DNA from: an uncultured Bacteroidales bacterium
GTDB taxonomy: Bacteria > Bacteroidota > Bacteroidia > Bacteroidales > Bacteroidaceae
Length of the DNA: 40,605 bases
NCBI GenBank assembly: GCA_902771725.1
Contig: CACXXT010000023.1
Location: 1-40,605 of the forward strand
Direction of reading: 5' to 3'
Both the position numbers and the translations under genes were made by a program. This document shows positions 11,264-17,820 of this stretch, piece after piece. The notes below the pieces were generated by a model. The model was given only the letters and a program-made list of their open reading frames with translations, was not told the DNA's origin and searched no databases. Every line of letters starts with the position of its first letter. Within the stretch, counting starts at the first letter, position 1.

Positions 11264-12553
11264 TTATCCTCCAAAGTTGTCAAAGCGGATCATGTCGTCT
11301 TCAACACCAAGGCTATGCAACAGGTCGAGTACGGTCTTGGCCATCATTGGAGGACCACAGAGATAGTACTCGCAGTCTTCGGGTGCCTCGTGGGCCTTGA
11401 GGTAAGTGTCACCCATGACGGGTGCCACGAAGCCCGGAGTGTATTTGATACCGGCAGCATCGGCCTTCGGATCGGGACGATCGAGGGCGAGGTGGAAGTG
11501 GAAGTTGGGGAAATCCTTCTCCAGCTGCAGGAAGTCATCTAGGAAGGGGATTTCCTCCAAGGCGCGGGCACCGTAGAAGTAGTGCATGGGGCGCTTGCGG
11601 TCCTCGTCCTTCACGCCATGGCCCTTGAGCATGTGCATAATCTGCGCACGAAGGGGAGCCATACCAGCACCGCCTCCAACCCAAATCATCTCACGACCTG
11701 TGCCATACTGGGGACGGAACTCACCATAGGGGCCGCTCATGATGACCTTGTCACCGGGCTTAAGACTGAAGATGTAGCTGGAAGCGATACCTGGGTTGAC
11801 ATCCATGAAACCAGGGCCTTGATCCTTCGGTTTGAATGGAGGAGTGGCGATACGTACGTTGAGGGTGATGATGTCGCCCTCATCCGGGTAGTTGGCCATG
11901 GAGTATGCACGAATGGTAGCTTCTGGATTCTTACACTTGAGCGGGAAGAGTCCGAACTTCTCCCAAGCGGGCAAATAAGTATCGCCGATAAGTGATTTGT
12001 CGAAATCACGATCGTAGTCGATACAATCGAAAGCCGGGATGCGAATCTGAGCGTAAGAACCAGGTTCGAAGTCCATATGCTCTCCGGGAGGCAGAGCGAC
12101 TTTGTACTCCTTGATGAAAGTAGCAACGTTCTTATTGCCAATAACGGTGCACTCCCATTCCTTGACGCCGAGAACGCTATCGGGCACCTTGATGCCGAGG
12201 TCGCCCTTGACCTTGCACTGACATCCAAGGCGCCAGTGCTCCTTGATTTCCTTACGGGTGAAGTGGCCTTTCTCGGAATCGAGAATTTCACCGCCACCGT
12301 CCACAACCTGACACTTGCACTGACCGCAAGAACCCTTGCCACCGCAAGCGGAGGGAAGATAGACGCCCTCAGCAGCGAGGGTAGATAGAAGGCTTGCGCC
12401 CTGAGGGACGGACAGGGTGTCTTTGCCATTCATGGTGATGATGACATTACCACTCGGTGAGAGGTAAGCCTTTGCCACAAGCAGAATGATGACCAACGCG
12501 ATGATGATCACGAGGAAGACCACAATGCTTGTGAGAATTAGTGATGTATTCAT
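11264..12553 (-). CDS. nqrF: Na+-NQR subunit F (NADH dehydrogenase subunit)
   Basis: A 429-residue protein that takes electrons from NADH into the Na+-pumping NADH:quinone reductase. Seen in order: one N-terminal membrane helix (about 5-30); a 2Fe-2S ferredoxin domain with C70, C76 and C79 in SACGGKGSCGQCKCQ plus C111 in LGCQC, the spacing known for Vibrio NqrF; an FAD-binding domain with RAYSMANYPDEG; and an NAD-binding domain with WVGGGAGMAPLRAQI and the C-terminal YLCGPPMM. The protein ends DNFGG. It is the last gene of nqrABCDEF, 15 bp after nqrE. Confidence 0.97.
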   Translation of the reverse strand: MNTSLILTSIVVFLVIIIALVIILLVAKAYLSPSGNVIITMNGKDTLSVPQGASLLSTLAAEGVYLPSACGGKGSCGQCKCQVVDGGGEILDSEKGHFTRKEIKEHWRLGCQCKVKGDLGIKVPDSVLGVKEWECTVIGNKNVATFIKEYKVALPPGEHMDFEPGSYAQIRIPAFDCIDYDRDFDKSLIGDTYLPAWEKFGLFPLKCKNPEATIRAYSMANYPDEGDIITLNVRIATPPFKPKDQGPGFMDVNPGIASSYIFSLKPGDKVIMSGPYGEFRPQYGTGREMIWVGGGAGMAPLRAQIMHMLKGHGVKDEDRKRPMHYFYGARALEEIPFLDDFLQLEKDFPNFHFHLALDRPDPKADAAGIKYTPGFVAPVMGDTYLKAHEAPEDCEYYLCGPPMMAKTVLDLLHSLGVEDDMIRFDNFGG

Positions 12554-12568
12554 TGTTGTTCTGCTTGT

Positions 12569-13195
12569 TTAGAGATTTAATCCACTGAAACACATGAAGG
12601 CCATAGCCATCAAGCCGACGGTGATAAATGTGATGCCAAGGCCCTGTAGCGGACGAGGAACGTCTGTGTAGGCCATTTTCTCGCGAATGGCAGCCAGACA
12701 AGTGATAGCCAGCAACCAGCCAATACCAGAACCGAGAGCATAGGCAATGCTATCCCAGATACTCAGGATGGCCTGAGAGTTGGTATCGGGCATCGTAACG
12801 CGCTGCTGCATGAACAGCGAAGCACCCATAATGGCACAGTTCACGGCAATCAGCGGAAGGAAAATACCAAGGGCGGCATACAGCGACGGACTAAAACGCT
12901 CGACAATCATCTCCACAAGCTGTACAATAGCTGCGATGACAGCGATGAAGAGAATGAACGAGAGGAAACTCAGGTCCACGCCTTCTACCAGACAGTTTGG
13001 ACCGAGAACATATTGCTGCAGGAGGTAGTCCACAGGCACGGTAATGAGCAGCACAAAGGTAACTGCGACACCGAGGCCGAGGGCGGTCTTCACGGTCTTG
13101 GATACTGCCAAATAAGAACACATACCCAAAAAGAACGCGAAAATCATATTGTCCACAAAAATGGAGCGGACGAATAGGCTAATTAAATGTTCCAT
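12569..13195 (-). CDS. nqrE: Na+-NQR subunit E
   Basis: A 208-residue membrane subunit with about six helices. NqrE and NqrD are paralogues that pack as an inverted pair and together hold an intramembrane Fe centre bound by cysteines. The expected cysteines are present: C26 in [11 protein letters not shown] and one in [12 protein letters not shown]. Length is normal. The stop is 15 bp before nqrF; the spacer towards nqrD (110 bp) contains the octamer repeats described separately. Confidence 0.96.
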
Positions 13196-13273
13196 AACGT
13201 TATTTTAGGATTTGACGATTTTGATTTATTGACAGAGTATCGCTTGATAGATATCTGAAACGCAAGTACTCAA

Positions 13274-13304
13274 ATCTTTAAATATAAAATCTTTAAATCT
13301 TTAA
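13274..13304 (-). repeat. Octamer tandem repeat in the nqrD-nqrE spacer
   Basis: On the plus strand: ATCTTTAA at 13274-13281, a variant ATATAAA, then ATCTTTAA at 13289-13296 and 13297-13304. The unit is the same as, or one base from, those in the nqrA-nqrB spacer and before dedA. A 13-bp sequence GATTTGACGATTT at 13209-13221 in the same spacer recurs exactly at 13941-13953 in the nqrC-nqrD spacer. Confidence 0.75.
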
Positions 13305-13305
13305 A

Positions 13306-13929
13306 TTACTGAAGTTCCTTATTATATGCCCTGTGTGCCCAGATAACGCAACCAACTATGATGAGAGACATAGCGGGCATGGTCATCATACCATTATTCA
13401 CGTAGCCGTGCTCATAGCACCAATCAGGGATAATCTGGAAGCCAAGGAGAGTGCCAGCACCGAGGAGCTCACGCACGAATCCTACAATGATAAGAATGAT
13501 GGCGTAGCCAATACCATTGCCGATACCGTCGAGAAACGAAGGCCAAGGCTTGTTCATCATGGCGAATGCCTCCAAACGACCCATCAGGATACAATTCGTA
13601 ATAATCAGACCAACATAGACGCTGAGCTGAACGCTGACGTCATAGGCGAAGGCCTTAAGCACCTGGGAGACAATGGTCACCAATGCAGCCACAACCACCA
13701 ACTGCACAATGATGCGAATGCGGTTGGGGATGGAGTTGCGGATGAGGGAAATAATCAGATTGGAAAAGGCGGTGATGATAGTCACACTAAGACCCATCAC
13801 AATGGCTGGTTCCAACTGAGCCGTGACGGCCAGTGCAGAACAGATACCGAGCACCTGCACCACAACAGGGTTATTAAGGTTCAGCGGTCCAACCAGTGCC
13901 TCTTGATTTGCTTTAGATAAAAGAGCCAT
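13306..13929 (-). CDS. nqrD: Na+-NQR subunit D
   Basis: A 207-residue membrane subunit. The frame is open back to 14013, but this would overlap nqrC and add 28 residues without family likeness; the ATG at 13929 gives MALLSKANQEALVGPLNLNN, the normal NqrD start. About six helices are visible. The Fe-centre cysteines are present: C30 in VLGICSALAV and one in LIITNCILMGRLEAFA. The FVRELLGAGTLLG loop is typical. It follows nqrC by 29 bp. Confidence 0.95.
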   Translation of the reverse strand: MALLSKANQEALVGPLNLNNPVVVQVLGICSALAVTAQLEPAIVMGLSVTIITAFSNLIISLIRNSIPNRIRIIVQLVVVAALVTIVSQVLKAFAYDVSVQLSVYVGLIITNCILMGRLEAFAMMNKPWPSFLDGIGNGIGYAIILIIVGFVRELLGAGTLLGFQIIPDWCYEHGYVNNGMMTMPAMSLIIVGCVIWAHRAYNKELQ

Positions 13930-13940
13930 ATCAATTATTC

Positions 13941-13953
13941 GATTTGACGATTT
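13941..13953. repeat. 13-bp direct repeat shared with the nqrD-nqrE spacer
   Basis: GATTTGACGATTT occurs here, between nqrC and nqrD, and again at 13209-13221 between nqrD and nqrE, in the same orientation and at similar short distances from the next start codon. Its function is unknown; it could arise by slippage of the same 8-bp-period sequences. Confidence 0.6.
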
Positions 13954-13958
13954 GCTAA

Positions 13959-15200
13959 TTACTTTTTCTGTCCGCAGCAAGCCTTGTCGCCATCGCAACC
14001 GGGCTTTCCACACGAACCACTCTTATCACACTGACCGCTCTTGCAGCAGTCGTTTCCGCTCTTGCACTTGTGGGCAACTTCGGTATCATCCTTGCAGCAA
14101 GGTTTCTGCTGGGGGCAGCAGTCGGCCTTCTCATCGCAGCAAGTTTCATGTTTCTGACAGCACTCGGGCAATTGGCCACAGCCTTCTGTTTGTTCACAGG
14201 CTGCCGTTTTCTCACAGCAAGTGCAGGGACACTCCTGACGGGAACAGCACTTGGCATCGCTAGCACAATTACAGGTTTCTTCTCCACAACTGCCATCTTT
14301 GCAGGCGCATTGTTTCTTCTGGGCACAAGTGCAATCTGGCTTATCGCAGCACTTCGGAGCAGAATGACTACAACCCTCATGGCGGCCACAACCACCTGCG
14401 GGCTTAGAACCACCAAGAGCTGTAACATACTGCTGGATACCAGTTAGCAACATTTCGCCAACACCCTTCGATGTCAGAGTAGCACCAGTGACACCATCTA
14501 CCTGATTCTCAGATTCGCTGCTGCCTTTTTTGACGACTGTCAGCGCAACCTGACCATCAGCCCCCATAACGGGACGGCCGATGAACTGGCTCTGGAACTT
14601 CTCCTCTTTGATGAGAGCACCAAGACCTGCGGTCTCGCTCTCATGGTCGAAATAAGCGCCAAGCACTTTCTGCAAGTCGGGGGTCACGGCTACATAGCCC
14701 CACAGACCTCCCCAAAGGCCACGGCCTTTCAGGGGAAGAACAAGAGCCTCGTCGCCTTCGGCTGTTTTTGCCTTGTAGACAGGGAACTTCGTGCCAATCT
14801 CCTTGGTCTCGACACCAAAGGCATCCTCGCCTTCAAGTATTTGACCGTCGGGAGTCAACACACAAGTCTCTTGGATTAATTCATTGTACTTGCCCTCGAC
14901 CTCGCTTTTGGCCAAGCCACGAACATTCAGTGAAGCAAGTATTTGGGATTTCTTGTCAATAGCCACATTGGCATCCTGTGCAGGCTTCAAAGCACTGCTG
15001 ACAAAAGCCAACAGGAAAGCTACGAGCACAACCATAACTGCTGCATAGCAGATAGTGTAAACATTACCATTCGTGTTAATGCCCTTTGATTTCACCTCCG
15101 TTATATGGGAAGCATCTGCGCCGCAGATAGGGCACTTGTCGGGCATAGATGCGGCTTCAAATGTCTGACCGCACTGACTGCATAAAAATTTCTTTGCCAT
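13959..15200 (-). CDS. nqrC: Na+-NQR subunit C with rubredoxin-like head and Cys-rich tail
   Basis: NqrC carries covalent FMN on the periplasmic side of the Na+-NQR complex. The core (about residues 39-265) is normal: one membrane helix (about 47-70) and the FMN domain with the flavinylation motif DGVTGATLTS (acceptor probably T241). The protein is 413 residues, well above my expectation of 210-260. Before the core is a rubredoxin-like knuckle with FLCSQCG and DKCPICGA (C7, C10, C23, C26). After the core is a 143-residue tail (271-413; DNA 13962-14390) with 35 Cys, 19 Lys and no Phe, Tyr, Trp, Ile or Met. Part of it repeats CC every 7 residues (CCQKHETCCDEKADCC). From the family topology the head would be cytoplasmic and the tail periplasmic. 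The frame is continuous and in place within the operon, so a simple frameshift is unlikely. Metal binding is inferred. Confidence 0.93.
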   Translation of the reverse strand: MAKKFLCSQCGQTFEAASMPDKCPICGADASHITEVKSKGINTNGNVYTICYAAVMVVLVAFLLAFVSSALKPAQDANVAIDKKSQILASLNVRGLAKSEVEGKYNELIQETCVLTPDGQILEGEDAFGVETKEIGTKFPVYKAKTAEGDEALVLPLKGRGLWGGLWGYVAVTPDLQKVLGAYFDHESETAGLGALIKEEKFQSQFIGRPVMGADGQVALTVVKKGSSESENQVDGVTGATLTSKGVGEMLLTGIQQYVTALGGSKPAGGCGRHEGCSHSAPKCCDKPDCTCAQKKQCACKDGSCGEETCNCASDAKCCSRQECPCTCCEKTAACEQTEGCGQLPECCQKHETCCDEKADCCPQQKPCCKDDTEVAHKCKSGNDCCKSGQCDKSGSCGKPGCDGDKACCGQKK

Positions 15201-15205
15201 ATCTG

Positions 15206-16375
15206 TTACTTTTTGATTGCGCGCTGAGCGCGTTTAGAAATATTGTGGCTGACGAAGCAGTAGTCAATAAGCGGAGCAAAGAGGTTCATCAGCAGGATGG
15301 CAAGCATCATTCCTTCGGGATAACCGGGGTTGAGGACACGCACTGTCACGGCCACGAAGCCAATGAGGAAACCATAAATCCACTTACCGCCTTCCGTACG
15401 GGCTGAGGTGACCGGATCTGTTGCCATGAACACGGCACCAAAACAGAAGCCACCAAGTACGATATGCTGGCAAGCATCCAGCGGAGAGAGGCCGAGGGCA
15501 TTGTACATCCAACCCGTCAGGCCACCGCCTACAAAGACGCTGAGCATGGTCTTCCAGCTGGCAACGCCCGTCCAAAGAAGCAGACAAGCTCCCAAAGCTA
15601 TAGCAATGACTGAAGTCTCGCCGATAGAGCCGGGAATCAGGCCAACGACTTGGTCACAAAAGCTCGATGAAAGAGCTGTGGCACCTGCTGCGATATCACC
15701 CAGAGGCGTGGCTGCCGAGAATGTATCGGGCACAGCATAACCGAGTCCACAAATGACATCCTGACTGACCCATACGGTATCGTCACCCGTCATACTGGAG
15801 GGATAAGAGAAAAAGAGGAACGCGCGCGTAATAAGAGCCACGTTGAAAATGTTCATGCCTGTACCGCCGAAAATTTCCTTAGCGAAGATGACGGAGAAAG
15901 CCACGGCGATAGCCAACATCCACAACGGGGTATTAACAGGCACTATCATCGGGATGATGATACCCGAGACGAGGAAACCTTCTTGAATTTCCTCATGCTT
16001 CCACTGAGCGACTGTAAACTCGATTCCCAAACCTACCACGTAGCTGACAATCAGTTTGGGTAGTACGGCCAGGAATCCGTAGAAGAACATGCCCCAGAAA
16101 GTGGCATTCTCCAATTGTCCGGCAGCGAGCGCGTTCTGGTAACCCACGTTGTACATACCGAAAAGCAACGCAGGCACAAGCGCAATGACCACAAGGGACA
16201 TGATACGCTTGCTGTCGATGGCATCGTGTACGTGCGTACCACAGCGCCCTGCTGTCGTGTTGGGCACGAAAGCAAACGTCTCGAAACCATCATAAAGCGA
16301 ACGGAAGGCGTGAAGTTTGCCACCCTCTTCGAAGTTCGGCTTTATCTTGTCGAAATATTTTCTTAAACTATTCAT
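15206..16375 (-). CDS. nqrB: Na+-NQR subunit B
   Basis: A 389-residue membrane subunit with about ten helices, holding riboflavin and a covalent FMN and lying in the Na+ path. The N-terminal NQR2-type segment MNSLRKYFDKIKPNFEEGGK and the following FVPNTTAGRCGTHVHD match the family. The probable flavinylation site is TFSAATPLG (about T223), where other NqrB proteins have SGAT; a second GAT at about 231-233 makes the assignment less certain. It lies 5 bp before nqrC and 116 bp after nqrA. Confidence 0.95.
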   Translation of the reverse strand: MNSLRKYFDKIKPNFEEGGKLHAFRSLYDGFETFAFVPNTTAGRCGTHVHDAIDSKRIMSLVVIALVPALLFGMYNVGYQNALAAGQLENATFWGMFFYGFLAVLPKLIVSYVVGLGIEFTVAQWKHEEIQEGFLVSGIIIPMIVPVNTPLWMLAIAVAFSVIFAKEIFGGTGMNIFNVALITRAFLFFSYPSSMTGDDTVWVSQDVICGLGYAVPDTFSAATPLGDIAAGATALSSSFCDQVVGLIPGSIGETSVIAIALGACLLLWTGVASWKTMLSVFVGGGLTGWMYNALGLSPLDACQHIVLGGFCFGAVFMATDPVTSARTEGGKWIYGFLIGFVAVTVRVLNPGYPEGMMLAILLMNLFAPLIDYCFVSHNISKRAQRAIKK

Positions 16376-16455
16376 AATCAGTTCTATGATTTAATGATTT
16401 CATATTTTAGGATTGGGCTGCGCAAGGCAATCTACATTTCTGTTGCTCTAGAGCA

Positions 16456-16487
16456 ATCCTTAAATCCTTAAATCTTTAAATCCTTAT
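16456..16487 (-). repeat. Octamer tandem repeat in the nqrA-nqrB spacer
   Basis: On the plus strand the units are ATCCTTAA, ATCCTTAA, ATCTTTAA and ATCCTTAT at 16456-16463, 16464-16471, 16472-16479 and 16480-16487. They begin right after the nqrA stop codon in the direction of transcription. The rest of the 116-bp spacer holds no recognisable site. Confidence 0.75.
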
Positions 16488-16491
16488 AACA

Positions 16492-17820
16492 TTAAGAGTT
16501 TTCCTTGCGGAGGATATCAAGCCCCTCGCGAACAATGCGTTGCAATTCTAGTTTGGAGCTGTCTACAAACTCTGCCAAAGCGAAGTCTTCGGGAGCTACC
16601 TCATAGATACCCAAGGCTTCCTGGCGGTCTATATCACCTGCGATGATGGCCTTAACAAGGTAGCCTGCGTAGATATCCATTGGGAAGACTCTATCGTACT
16701 CGCCCGACATGATCATGTGGCGCTCACCACCCTTGATGCGTGCATCCAAGGTGTATTCTGCAGACTTCGGACGAAGCCAACTGAAATAACTGCGACTGGT
16801 GCTGAATTCCTTACAGCGGGGAGCAATCCAACCAAGCATTTCGTAGACATCATCACCTTCGGGAATGACAGTGATTTCCGTGGCGTGCGCGCCTAAGAAA
16901 CCATCTTTCGAAGTTTTCACGCCCACCATGGGATTGCCATTGATGATACGCAGGCTCTTCTGCTCATCAATCTGACCAGAGAGCACCTCTTTCAAAGGCT
17001 GCCCCACTACCATCTGAGCGTACTTAGGAGTTTTCACCTCACTGCCAGCAACGGCGATGGTGCGAGTCAGATCAACCTTGCCATTAAGCACAACGCGTCC
17101 AATTAGGATGACCTCTTCAGCTCCAAGAGTCCAAATGACTTCACCTTTGTTGATGGGGTCTACATGGTTGATTTGCACACCTACATTGCCTGCAGGAGCA
17201 GGACCGTCAAAGACTGTAACTGTGACATCCTTGGCAGCCATCAGAGCCTCTGCCTTCTGCTTGACACTGACCCCCAGGTGCACCTTGGCAATCTTAGCCA
17301 GCAGCGAGAGGCCTGCCTGGAACTCCTTCTCCTGCCCGCGTAAGACATACTCGAAGTCGGCAGCCAGAGGCATACTGTTGAAAGCGCTGACGAAGATAGC
17401 TTTGGGTTTGTCCTCGGGGTTCGCCACCACGTCGTAGGGACGCTGGCGGAAGAAACCGAAGAGGCCACTTTCCAGCAGCAGCTTCAATGGATCTTTTTCT
17501 TCAAAGACCCTGCAATCCTGCTTTCCATCGGCGTCTACGCGCACGCTCATCACCTTGCGGCGCTCACCACGCTCCACGAGGGCTACGGTGCCGCTGACAG
17601 GCGAAACGAACTTCACTTCGGGATGGTTCTTGTCAACAAACAAGGCATCCCCGACCTTGACAATGTCACCCTCTTTGACAACGACCTTGGGTTTCATACC
17701 ATAGAAGTCATCAGGAATCAGCGCAAACTGACCCTGCACCTTCGTTTGGATGGTTTCCAAGCTCGCTTTGCCCTTTAGGTTTACGTCGAGGCCTTTGCGT
17801 AACTTGATTACATTTGCCAT
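16492..17820 (-). CDS. nqrA: Na+-NQR subunit A
   Basis: A 442-residue soluble-side subunit of the Na+-translocating NADH:quinone reductase, implicated in quinone binding. Seen: the N-terminal KLRKGLDVNLKGKA barrel-sandwich hybrid start, DDFYGMKPKVVVKEGDIVKVGDALF, the SGTVALVERGERR segment, and the conserved C-terminal GGERHMIMSGEYDRVFPMDI. Length is normal for the family. It is the first gene of the operon, divergent from the TamB-like gene, with its own promoter about 45-70 bp upstream. Confidence 0.96.
   Translation of the reverse strand: MANVIKLRKGLDVNLKGKASLETIQTKVQGQFALIPDDFYGMKPKVVVKEGDIVKVGDALFVDKNHPEVKFVSPVSGTVALVERGERRKVMSVRVDADGKQDCRVFEEKDPLKLLLESGLFGFFRQRPYDVVANPEDKPKAIFVSAFNSMPLAADFEYVLRGQEKEFQAGLSLLAKIAKVHLGVSVKQKAEALMAAKDVTVTVFDGPAPAGNVGVQINHVDPINKGEVIWTLGAEEVILIGRVVLNGKVDLTRTIAVAGSEVKTPKYAQMVVGQPLKEVLSGQIDEQKSLRIINGNPMVGVKTSKDGFLGAHATEITVIPEGDDVYEMLGWIAPRCKEFSTSRSYFSWLRPKSAEYTLDARIKGGERHMIMSGEYDRVFPMDIYAGYLVKAIIAGDIDRQEALGIYEVAPEDFALAEFVDSSKLELQRIVREGLDILRKENS

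Follow-up and report, generated by a model that had tools for sequence, protein, structure and literature searches.

A conserved cysteine-rich extension of the respiratory subunit NqrC, with a metallothionein-like composition, in an uncultured genus of Bacteroidales

Introduction

Why would an electron-transfer subunit of a respiratory sodium pump carry a C-terminal tail crowded with cysteines? The question is raised by the nqrC gene of an uncultured Bacteroidales bacterium, the end of which had been described as metallothionein-like in an earlier note made from the DNA letters. In the solved enzyme from Vibrio, NqrC is periplasmic and held by one helix, with an FMN domain that is turned towards NqrB or NqrD/E (PMC9325719, PMC10739449). 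Its FMN protrudes into a periplasmic cavity (PMC9325719) and takes electrons from the intramembranous [2Fe-2S] cluster of NqrD/E (PMC10739449). The tail considered here is an in-frame extension that is conserved within a clade. Two of its blocks are under constraint comparable to that of the enzyme core, and in the searches made it occurs on NqrC only. Its function is weighed below against several alternatives.

A variant NqrC in a complete nqr operon

The window, that is, the whole stretch of DNA that was analysed (40,605 nucleotides), is an entire contig (C23) of a genome of 3.72 Mb in 147 contigs, which is 97.5% complete. It contains a complete nqrABCDEF operon (11264-17820), and all six subunits score above the cut-offs of their own TIGR models (Table 1). 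The nqrC frame runs unbroken from the ATG at 15200 to the TAA at 13959 on the minus strand, and the mechanical frame of nqrD opens earlier than the start adopted here, with a GTG at 14013. The narrower PRK05346 models match the window protein below their cut-offs. Judged by its family model, its flavin threonine, the fold of its FMN domain and its place in the operon, the protein can be assigned to NqrC.

Table 1. Positions in the window of the nqr genes and of the parts of NqrC
Feature	Position	Strand	Basis
nqrA	16492..17820	-	TIGR01936 455.1 bits (cut-off 321.05)
nqrB	15206..16375	-	TIGR01937 446.5 bits (cut-off 349.9)
nqrC (413 aa), including the two additions that contain cysteines	13959..15200	-	open frame; TIGR01938 168 bits (cut-off 144); FMN_bind PF04205 E 1.9e-14
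nqrD, start taken as ATG 13929	13306..13929	-	TIGR01939 299.2 bits (cut-off 244.85)
nqrE	12569..13195	-	TIGR01940 291.6 bits (cut-off 247.55)
nqrF	11264..12553	-	TIGR01941 525 bits (cut-off 295)
Putative rubredoxin-like domain, N-terminal, residues 1-36 (C7, C10, C23, C26)	15093..15200	-	PF21349 RUBY_RBDX E 4.9e-10, 39.1 bits (cut-off 26.5)
Predicted single transmembrane helix, about residues 48-68	14997..15059	-	hydrophobic stretch; within model helix 45-90; start of V. cholerae NqrC aligns (weak, 15.6 bits)
FMN-carrying domain, residues 69-262	14415..14996	-	3lwx aligned to 70-262; best Foldseek match 3lwx, E 7.7e-17; pLDDT 72-94 per ten-residue block
T241, opposite flavin-bearing Thr225 of V. 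cholerae NqrC	14478..14480	-	alignment
Cysteine-rich tail, residues 263-413, 35 Cys	13962..14414	-	composition, relatives, dN/dS
Tail N block, residues 283-331, conserved KCCDKPDC...ECPCxCCEK	14208..14354	-	alignment A1; dN/dS 0.100
Variable middle of the tail, residues 332-376, with CC at intervals of seven	14073..14207	-	alignment A1; dN/dS 0.222
Tail C block, residues 377-411, conserved HKCKSGNDCCKSGxCDKSGSCGKPGCDGDKACCG	13968..14072	-	alignment A1; dN/dS 0.073

The NqrC proteins of Parabacteroides distasonis (3lwx) and V. cholerae (7xk3_C) share with the window protein the core, the transmembrane helix, the flavin threonine and the place in the operon, but in alignments to it they have neither a cysteine-rich tail nor a rubredoxin-like domain. 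The alignment of V. cholerae NqrC falls into two stretches, and Thr225 of this protein bears the flavin (PMC9325719, PMC10739449). The NqrC of P. bryantii has 210 residues (PMC6560451). Since the alignment of 3lwx stops at residue 262, the tail is appended to a normal NqrC, and it starts about where the earlier note had placed the end of ordinary NqrC proteins. Residues 271-413 (13962-14390, minus strand) hold 35 cysteines and 19 lysines in 143 positions and no phenylalanine, tyrosine, tryptophan, isoleucine or methionine, and CC pairs recur in mid-tail with a spacing of seven residues (347/348, 354/355, 361/362 and 368/369); on both points the recount agrees with the earlier note. The tail further contains four histidines, one leucine and one valine.

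The second addition, at the N-terminus, appears from its family model and its four cysteines to be a rubredoxin-like domain of the RUBY_RBDX type. It is modelled with a pLDDT of 81-87 over residues 1-30, and its Foldseek matches to rubrerythrins are weak (best E 0.09). Among 119 NqrCs of the genus, 73 have the rubredoxin motif and 46 do not, and on the tree this state changes 28 times or more. Some NqrCs of the genus that lack the domain retain the initial MAK, and rubredoxin-like domains on NqrC were found in further genera of the family as well.

Structure prediction, which the earlier note had suggested, gave a divided outcome. In the AlphaFold model the rubredoxin-like domain, the helix and the FMN domain are obtained with fair to high confidence, while the tail has no confident fold (mean pLDDT 40.6 for the tail alone; below 50 for residues 265-378 in the model). 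Such an unfolded model would be expected of a metal-free metallothionein and equally of plain disorder.

Distribution of the tail

With the tail as query against 5.8 billion proteins, 64 of 64 passing sequences (69 candidates) carried an FMN-binding domain. The same holds for all 23 that passed with a profile of eight tails (2316 candidates) and for all six that passed with a different type of tail from the genus, made of KCADCTKECKDGK repeats (359 candidates). By BLASTP, each of the 80 recovered proteins contains the core of NqrC, with a lowest identity of 48.7%; as these searches rely on shared short words and a set length range, distant or much shorter free relatives of the tail could be missed. 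The relatives of the tail found in these searches are all NqrC, and its frame is kept elsewhere: two relatives on other public contigs have tails that are 97% (P0002; 8 member sequences, 4 contigs) and 93% (P0003) identical. Of 25 related loci from named genomes, 24 match the tail at E<=1e-5, and all 25 have matches to nqrB, nqrC, nqrD and nqrE around the place (two matches being cut by contig ends).

These loci all belong to uncultured Bacteroidaceae, Prevotellaceae or Bacteroidales. Ruminant hosts are given in 10 of the 25 titles: goat in four, red deer and sheep in two each, yak and reindeer in one each. Some of the other titles carry the codes of rumen collections, and those left over name no source. 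Prevotellaceae bacterium UBA4372 is among them, and the genus seems to be the GTDB genus of that name. The profile of the eight aligned tails (A1), which is blind to other kinds of tail, matched seven genomes among 399 of the family, one of them the window's and all of the same genus, and 1 of 393 genomes of the order, the window's own. A second copy of the tail in the window genome was considered and rejected, the one weak match (E 0.0015) containing two stops.

RnfG, the covalent-FMN subunit of a related pump (PMC4014512), is a paralogue of NqrC. In the window genome it has 202 residues and, unlike the window NqrC, ends without cysteines. In the open-access literature searched, no paper was found that joins NqrC with cysteine-richness or with metallothionein; the co-mention of NqrC and rubredoxin that was found there is work on Clostridium ultunense. 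The available parts of PMC4014512, PMC10739449 and PMC6560451 mention no cysteine-rich NqrC tail and contain the word rubredoxin 0 times each. The claim of the earlier note that such a tail is without described precedent is therefore borne out as far as the family libraries and open-access literature searched can tell.

Conservation and constraint within the genus

An NqrC match (E<=1e-20) is present in 122 of 139 genomes of the genus, and in 18 of the 18 near-complete ones. The number of tail cysteines, counted in 121 of these proteins (L158 runs off its contig), varies widely: 42 have none, 21 have 1-4, 17 have 5-9, 17 have 10-19 and 24 have at least 20. Since 42 of the 121 manage without any, the pump does not need tail cysteines. 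In a tree of 120 NqrC cores (119 from the genus and one outgroup; L147, L148 and L089, partial or broken, were dropped), one clade (SH-aLRT 99) unites 33 NqrCs, all 33 with cysteine-rich tails of 7 to 45 cysteines. Cysteine reaches 21.6% in the tails of the clade (34 members), against 1.39% in the rest of the protein (121 NqrCs of the genus). Within the clade the C block is missing in L044, L050 and L053 and the N block in L052, L054, L088 and L090, and L009 and L049 have seven tail cysteines each. The nqrC of genome G144 (L089) is split into two overlapping frames, either by a sequencing error or by a real break.

For 24 NqrCs with at least 22 tail cysteines, a set that includes the window protein and the broken L089, the core (residues 41-262) has a pooled pairwise dN/dS of 0.119; this and the values for the parts of the tail (Table 1) are rough, the pairs being non-independent and dS in the tail high (0.86-1.6). 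The values of the two blocks are like that of the core, which shows constraint at the protein level, with the C block under the strongest constraint within the tail. Nineteen of the 23 cysteine columns in the two blocks are cysteine in all rows that cover them, three miss one row, and residue 328 is cysteine in 12 of 24; both TGC and TGT are used in 21 of the 23 columns. Furthermore, many non-cysteine residues of the blocks are invariant across the eight aligned tails.

An artefact or frameshift is ruled out by the relatives on other public contigs, the clade, the constraint and the neighbouring genes. The frameshift near the start of the tail for which the earlier note had allowed is not borne out, given a frame that is open to its stop, a tail under constraint and relatives that share it. 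It could also be imagined that the run of cysteine codons acts in translation, where stalling at cysteine shortage would tune nqrD to nqrF. Thirty-five such codons do stand shortly upstream of nqrD, and only 29 bases lie between nqrC and the ATG at 13929. However, residues other than cysteine are conserved while codons vary, and constraint is strongest in the C block, so that we regard this explanation as very improbable.

A further possibility is that the tail is a low-complexity repeat expansion of little function, tolerated at a permissive C-terminus. The middle of the tail is indeed repeat-rich, variable in length and less constrained, 42 of the 121 NqrCs of the genus have no tail cysteine at all, and tails of at least 15 residues switch on or off at least nine times on the tree. 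These features have to be set against two blocks that are constrained like the enzyme core, and against the cysteine share of 13.6-21.6% that tails of unlike sequence have in common, although these groups were picked for cysteine. On balance a mere expansion seems rather unlikely. An origin of the tail from a DNA repeat was likewise looked into and rejected, the repeats found being weak only.

Other cysteine-rich tails

The genus contains several tails that differ in sequence from that of the window and are nevertheless rich in cysteine, for example those with repeats of CGMHEGCPKAE (L156), with CGQGQ (L121) or with CPKEDCPMAG (L123). In six further groups, which were drawn by eye and chosen for their cysteine-rich tails, cysteine amounts to 13.6-18.6%, compared with 21.6% in the main clade. 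The occurrence of such tails of unlike sequence in six further groups suggests repeated selection for cysteine as such. On the tree, the state of having at least 10 tail cysteines switches at least 11 times; support is below 80 on 44 of 114 inner branches, and the direction of change cannot be read from it. Shorter, acidic tails of the genus end in (N/D)VEQ, and many of them have 5-10 cysteines.

Outside the genus, 5 of 32 NqrCs from other genera of the family (12 from the search and 20 chosen by hand, mostly for long frames) have short tails with 5-8 cysteines. They are L179, L182, L186, L192 and L193, from two other genera, with tails such as TKQCCKEGGCEEG. The ending VEQ or NVEQ closes many otherwise unlike NqrC tails (L150, L121, L028, L019 and others), and the cysteine-rich ones may thus have grown out of an old tail that was short and acidic. 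In L004, L038, L046 and P0065 a different cysteine module (CCNPCEC..CCC, repeated) stands in mid-tail or replaces the N block.

Cysteine spacing and comparison with known proteins

Successive cysteines of the window tail are 1, 2, 5 or 6 positions apart, with a single gap of 7 and a single gap of 10. Compared with shuffled sequences, CxxC is absent (0 against 4.7 expected), as is CxxxC (0 against 3.7), and C-x5-C is in excess (12 against 2.1), while CC (9 against 7.9) and CxC (5 against 6.1) are at chance level. In relatives of the clade, CxxC accounts for 51 of the 802 gaps counted over 29 tails. The absence of CxxC from the window tail argues against a ferredoxin- or thioredoxin-like function; the spacing as a whole neither supports nor excludes metallothionein clusters.

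This bears on a possible role in which the tail would carry iron or iron-sulfur clusters and either supply the cluster of NqrD/E or offer electrons of the FMN an additional relay or exit. Such a role would suit a subunit whose flavin is fed by an iron-sulfur cluster and which carries a rubredoxin-like domain on the same chain. However, the window tail has no CxxCxxC, nor any cysteine gap of 3 from which one could be built, and the rubredoxin-like domain and the tail are not associated: at least five tail cysteines are found in 34 of 73 NqrCs with the domain and in 23 of 46 without it. We therefore think it quite unlikely that the tail is an iron carrier.

Is the tail, then, a metallothionein? 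In its general make-up it resembles the metallothioneins of animals, plants and fungi; those of the animal type have no aromatic residues, and neither has the tail. It also resembles the bacterial metallothioneins SmtA and BmtA (Pfam PF02069), which are very rich in cysteine and have some histidine. SmtA has 9 cysteines, and the window tail about four times that number. Metallothioneins are small cysteine-rich proteins, of which the bacterial ones have more histidine and hydrophobic residues than those of animals (PMC10612145). The two blocks of the tail recall the two-domain form described for metallothioneins (PMC10243857). In contrast to the bacterial proteins, the tail has only four histidines, a single leucine, a single valine and no aromatic residue, and it is fused to a respiratory subunit and predicted to be periplasmic. 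From the animal, plant and fungal proteins it differs in being fused to an enzyme subunit and in lacking any Pfam or PDB match: none of the Pfam metallothionein models was found at E<=10 over eight tails, where DUF4629 alone appeared (E 6.8, in one of the eight), and no PDB chain matches the tail.

Thus the name metallothionein-like, given in the earlier note, fits the tail as far as composition and richness in cysteine are concerned, while a match to a known metallothionein family and an excess of CC or CxC over chance are not found. As it lacks these, and is a part of NqrC in every protein recovered and not a small free protein, the tail is not filed here as a metallothionein, and the protein is regarded as a variant NqrC.

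Periplasmic surroundings and metal sensitivity

By homology to the solved Vibrio enzyme, the tail is predicted to lie in the periplasm. The earlier note had proposed this location and had remarked that free thiols are unusual there. The predicted side agrees with that proposal, and the concern about thiols is lessened in this genus, although the window genome itself has a VKOR. DsbB was found in 0 of 139 genomes and in 0 of the 18 near-complete ones, and VKOR matches occur in 11 of the 139, the window's among them, and in 2 of the 18. DsbB and VKOR were the disulfide-forming enzymes searched for; if the periplasm is poor in such enzymes, thiols could stay free or bound to metal there. The holders of VKOR are not poor in tails, since 7 of the 11 have at least seven tail cysteines.

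The one VKOR of the window genome is a VKOR-thioredoxin protein of 522 residues (L199 802-2370, minus strand, G000:C1), which has a peptidase C39 match below the cut-off at its start. Its neighbour is a gene that matches LanC-like proteins weakly, also below the cut-off, and judged by these genes the locus is possibly a cluster for the export of modified peptides.

It has to be considered whether the thiols serve as a redox buffer, storing electrons from the NqrC flavin or quenching oxygen or reactive species at the periplasmic flavin. The tail belongs to a redox subunit with an FMN that reaches into the periplasmic cavity; tail length and motif vary while cysteine is kept, as for a bulk store of thiols; CC and CxC are at chance level in the window tail; and a VKOR is present in the window genome. 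Against this, CxxC is missing from the window tail, and the many invariant non-cysteine residues of the blocks go beyond what a bulk thiol store needs. Moreover, 22 of 34 tails contain an odd number of cysteines, as do 15 of 34 whole ectodomains, and this mixed parity gives no sign of a fixed, full disulfide pairing. A redox buffer seems to us unlikely.

NQR-containing membranes of P. bryantii (Prevotella) are inhibited by half at about 0.75 uM AgNO3 (PMC6560451). This sensitivity to silver makes a role as a guard against soft metals plausible. The silver target of NQR lies on NqrF, on the cytoplasmic side; a target across the membrane would weaken such a role.

A possible role for the tail

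The explanation that we prefer, with about an even chance of being right, is that this conserved extension of NqrC acts as a membrane-tethered, metallothionein-like trap for soft metals at the predicted periplasmic face of the pump. If the architecture of the Vibrio enzyme holds here, the tail would be a periplasmic neighbour of the FMN domain, which would move between the iron-sulfur cluster of NqrD/E and NqrB. Composition and spacing suggest that its thiols may form metal-thiolate clusters in a proximal and a distal conserved module, with an expandable stretch between them. The proposed benefit is that the tail would intercept metal ions, namely Zn(II), Cu(I), Ag(I) or Cd(II), on their way to a pump that depends on thiols and iron-sulfur clusters.

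It could further be speculated that cysteine-rich periplasmic tails, having evolved repeatedly, take up metal and also pass electrons to and from the swinging FMN domain, and so give rise to a metal-gated or metal-buffered pump; this goes further than the metal trap, and we consider it rather improbable.

If the tail is indeed a metallothionein within a subunit of a primary sodium pump, metal handling would be tied directly to respiration, and one would have to ask why a single electron-transfer subunit keeps so costly a tail. Since NqrCs with and without tails occur side by side in one genus, this question can be tested by comparing them.
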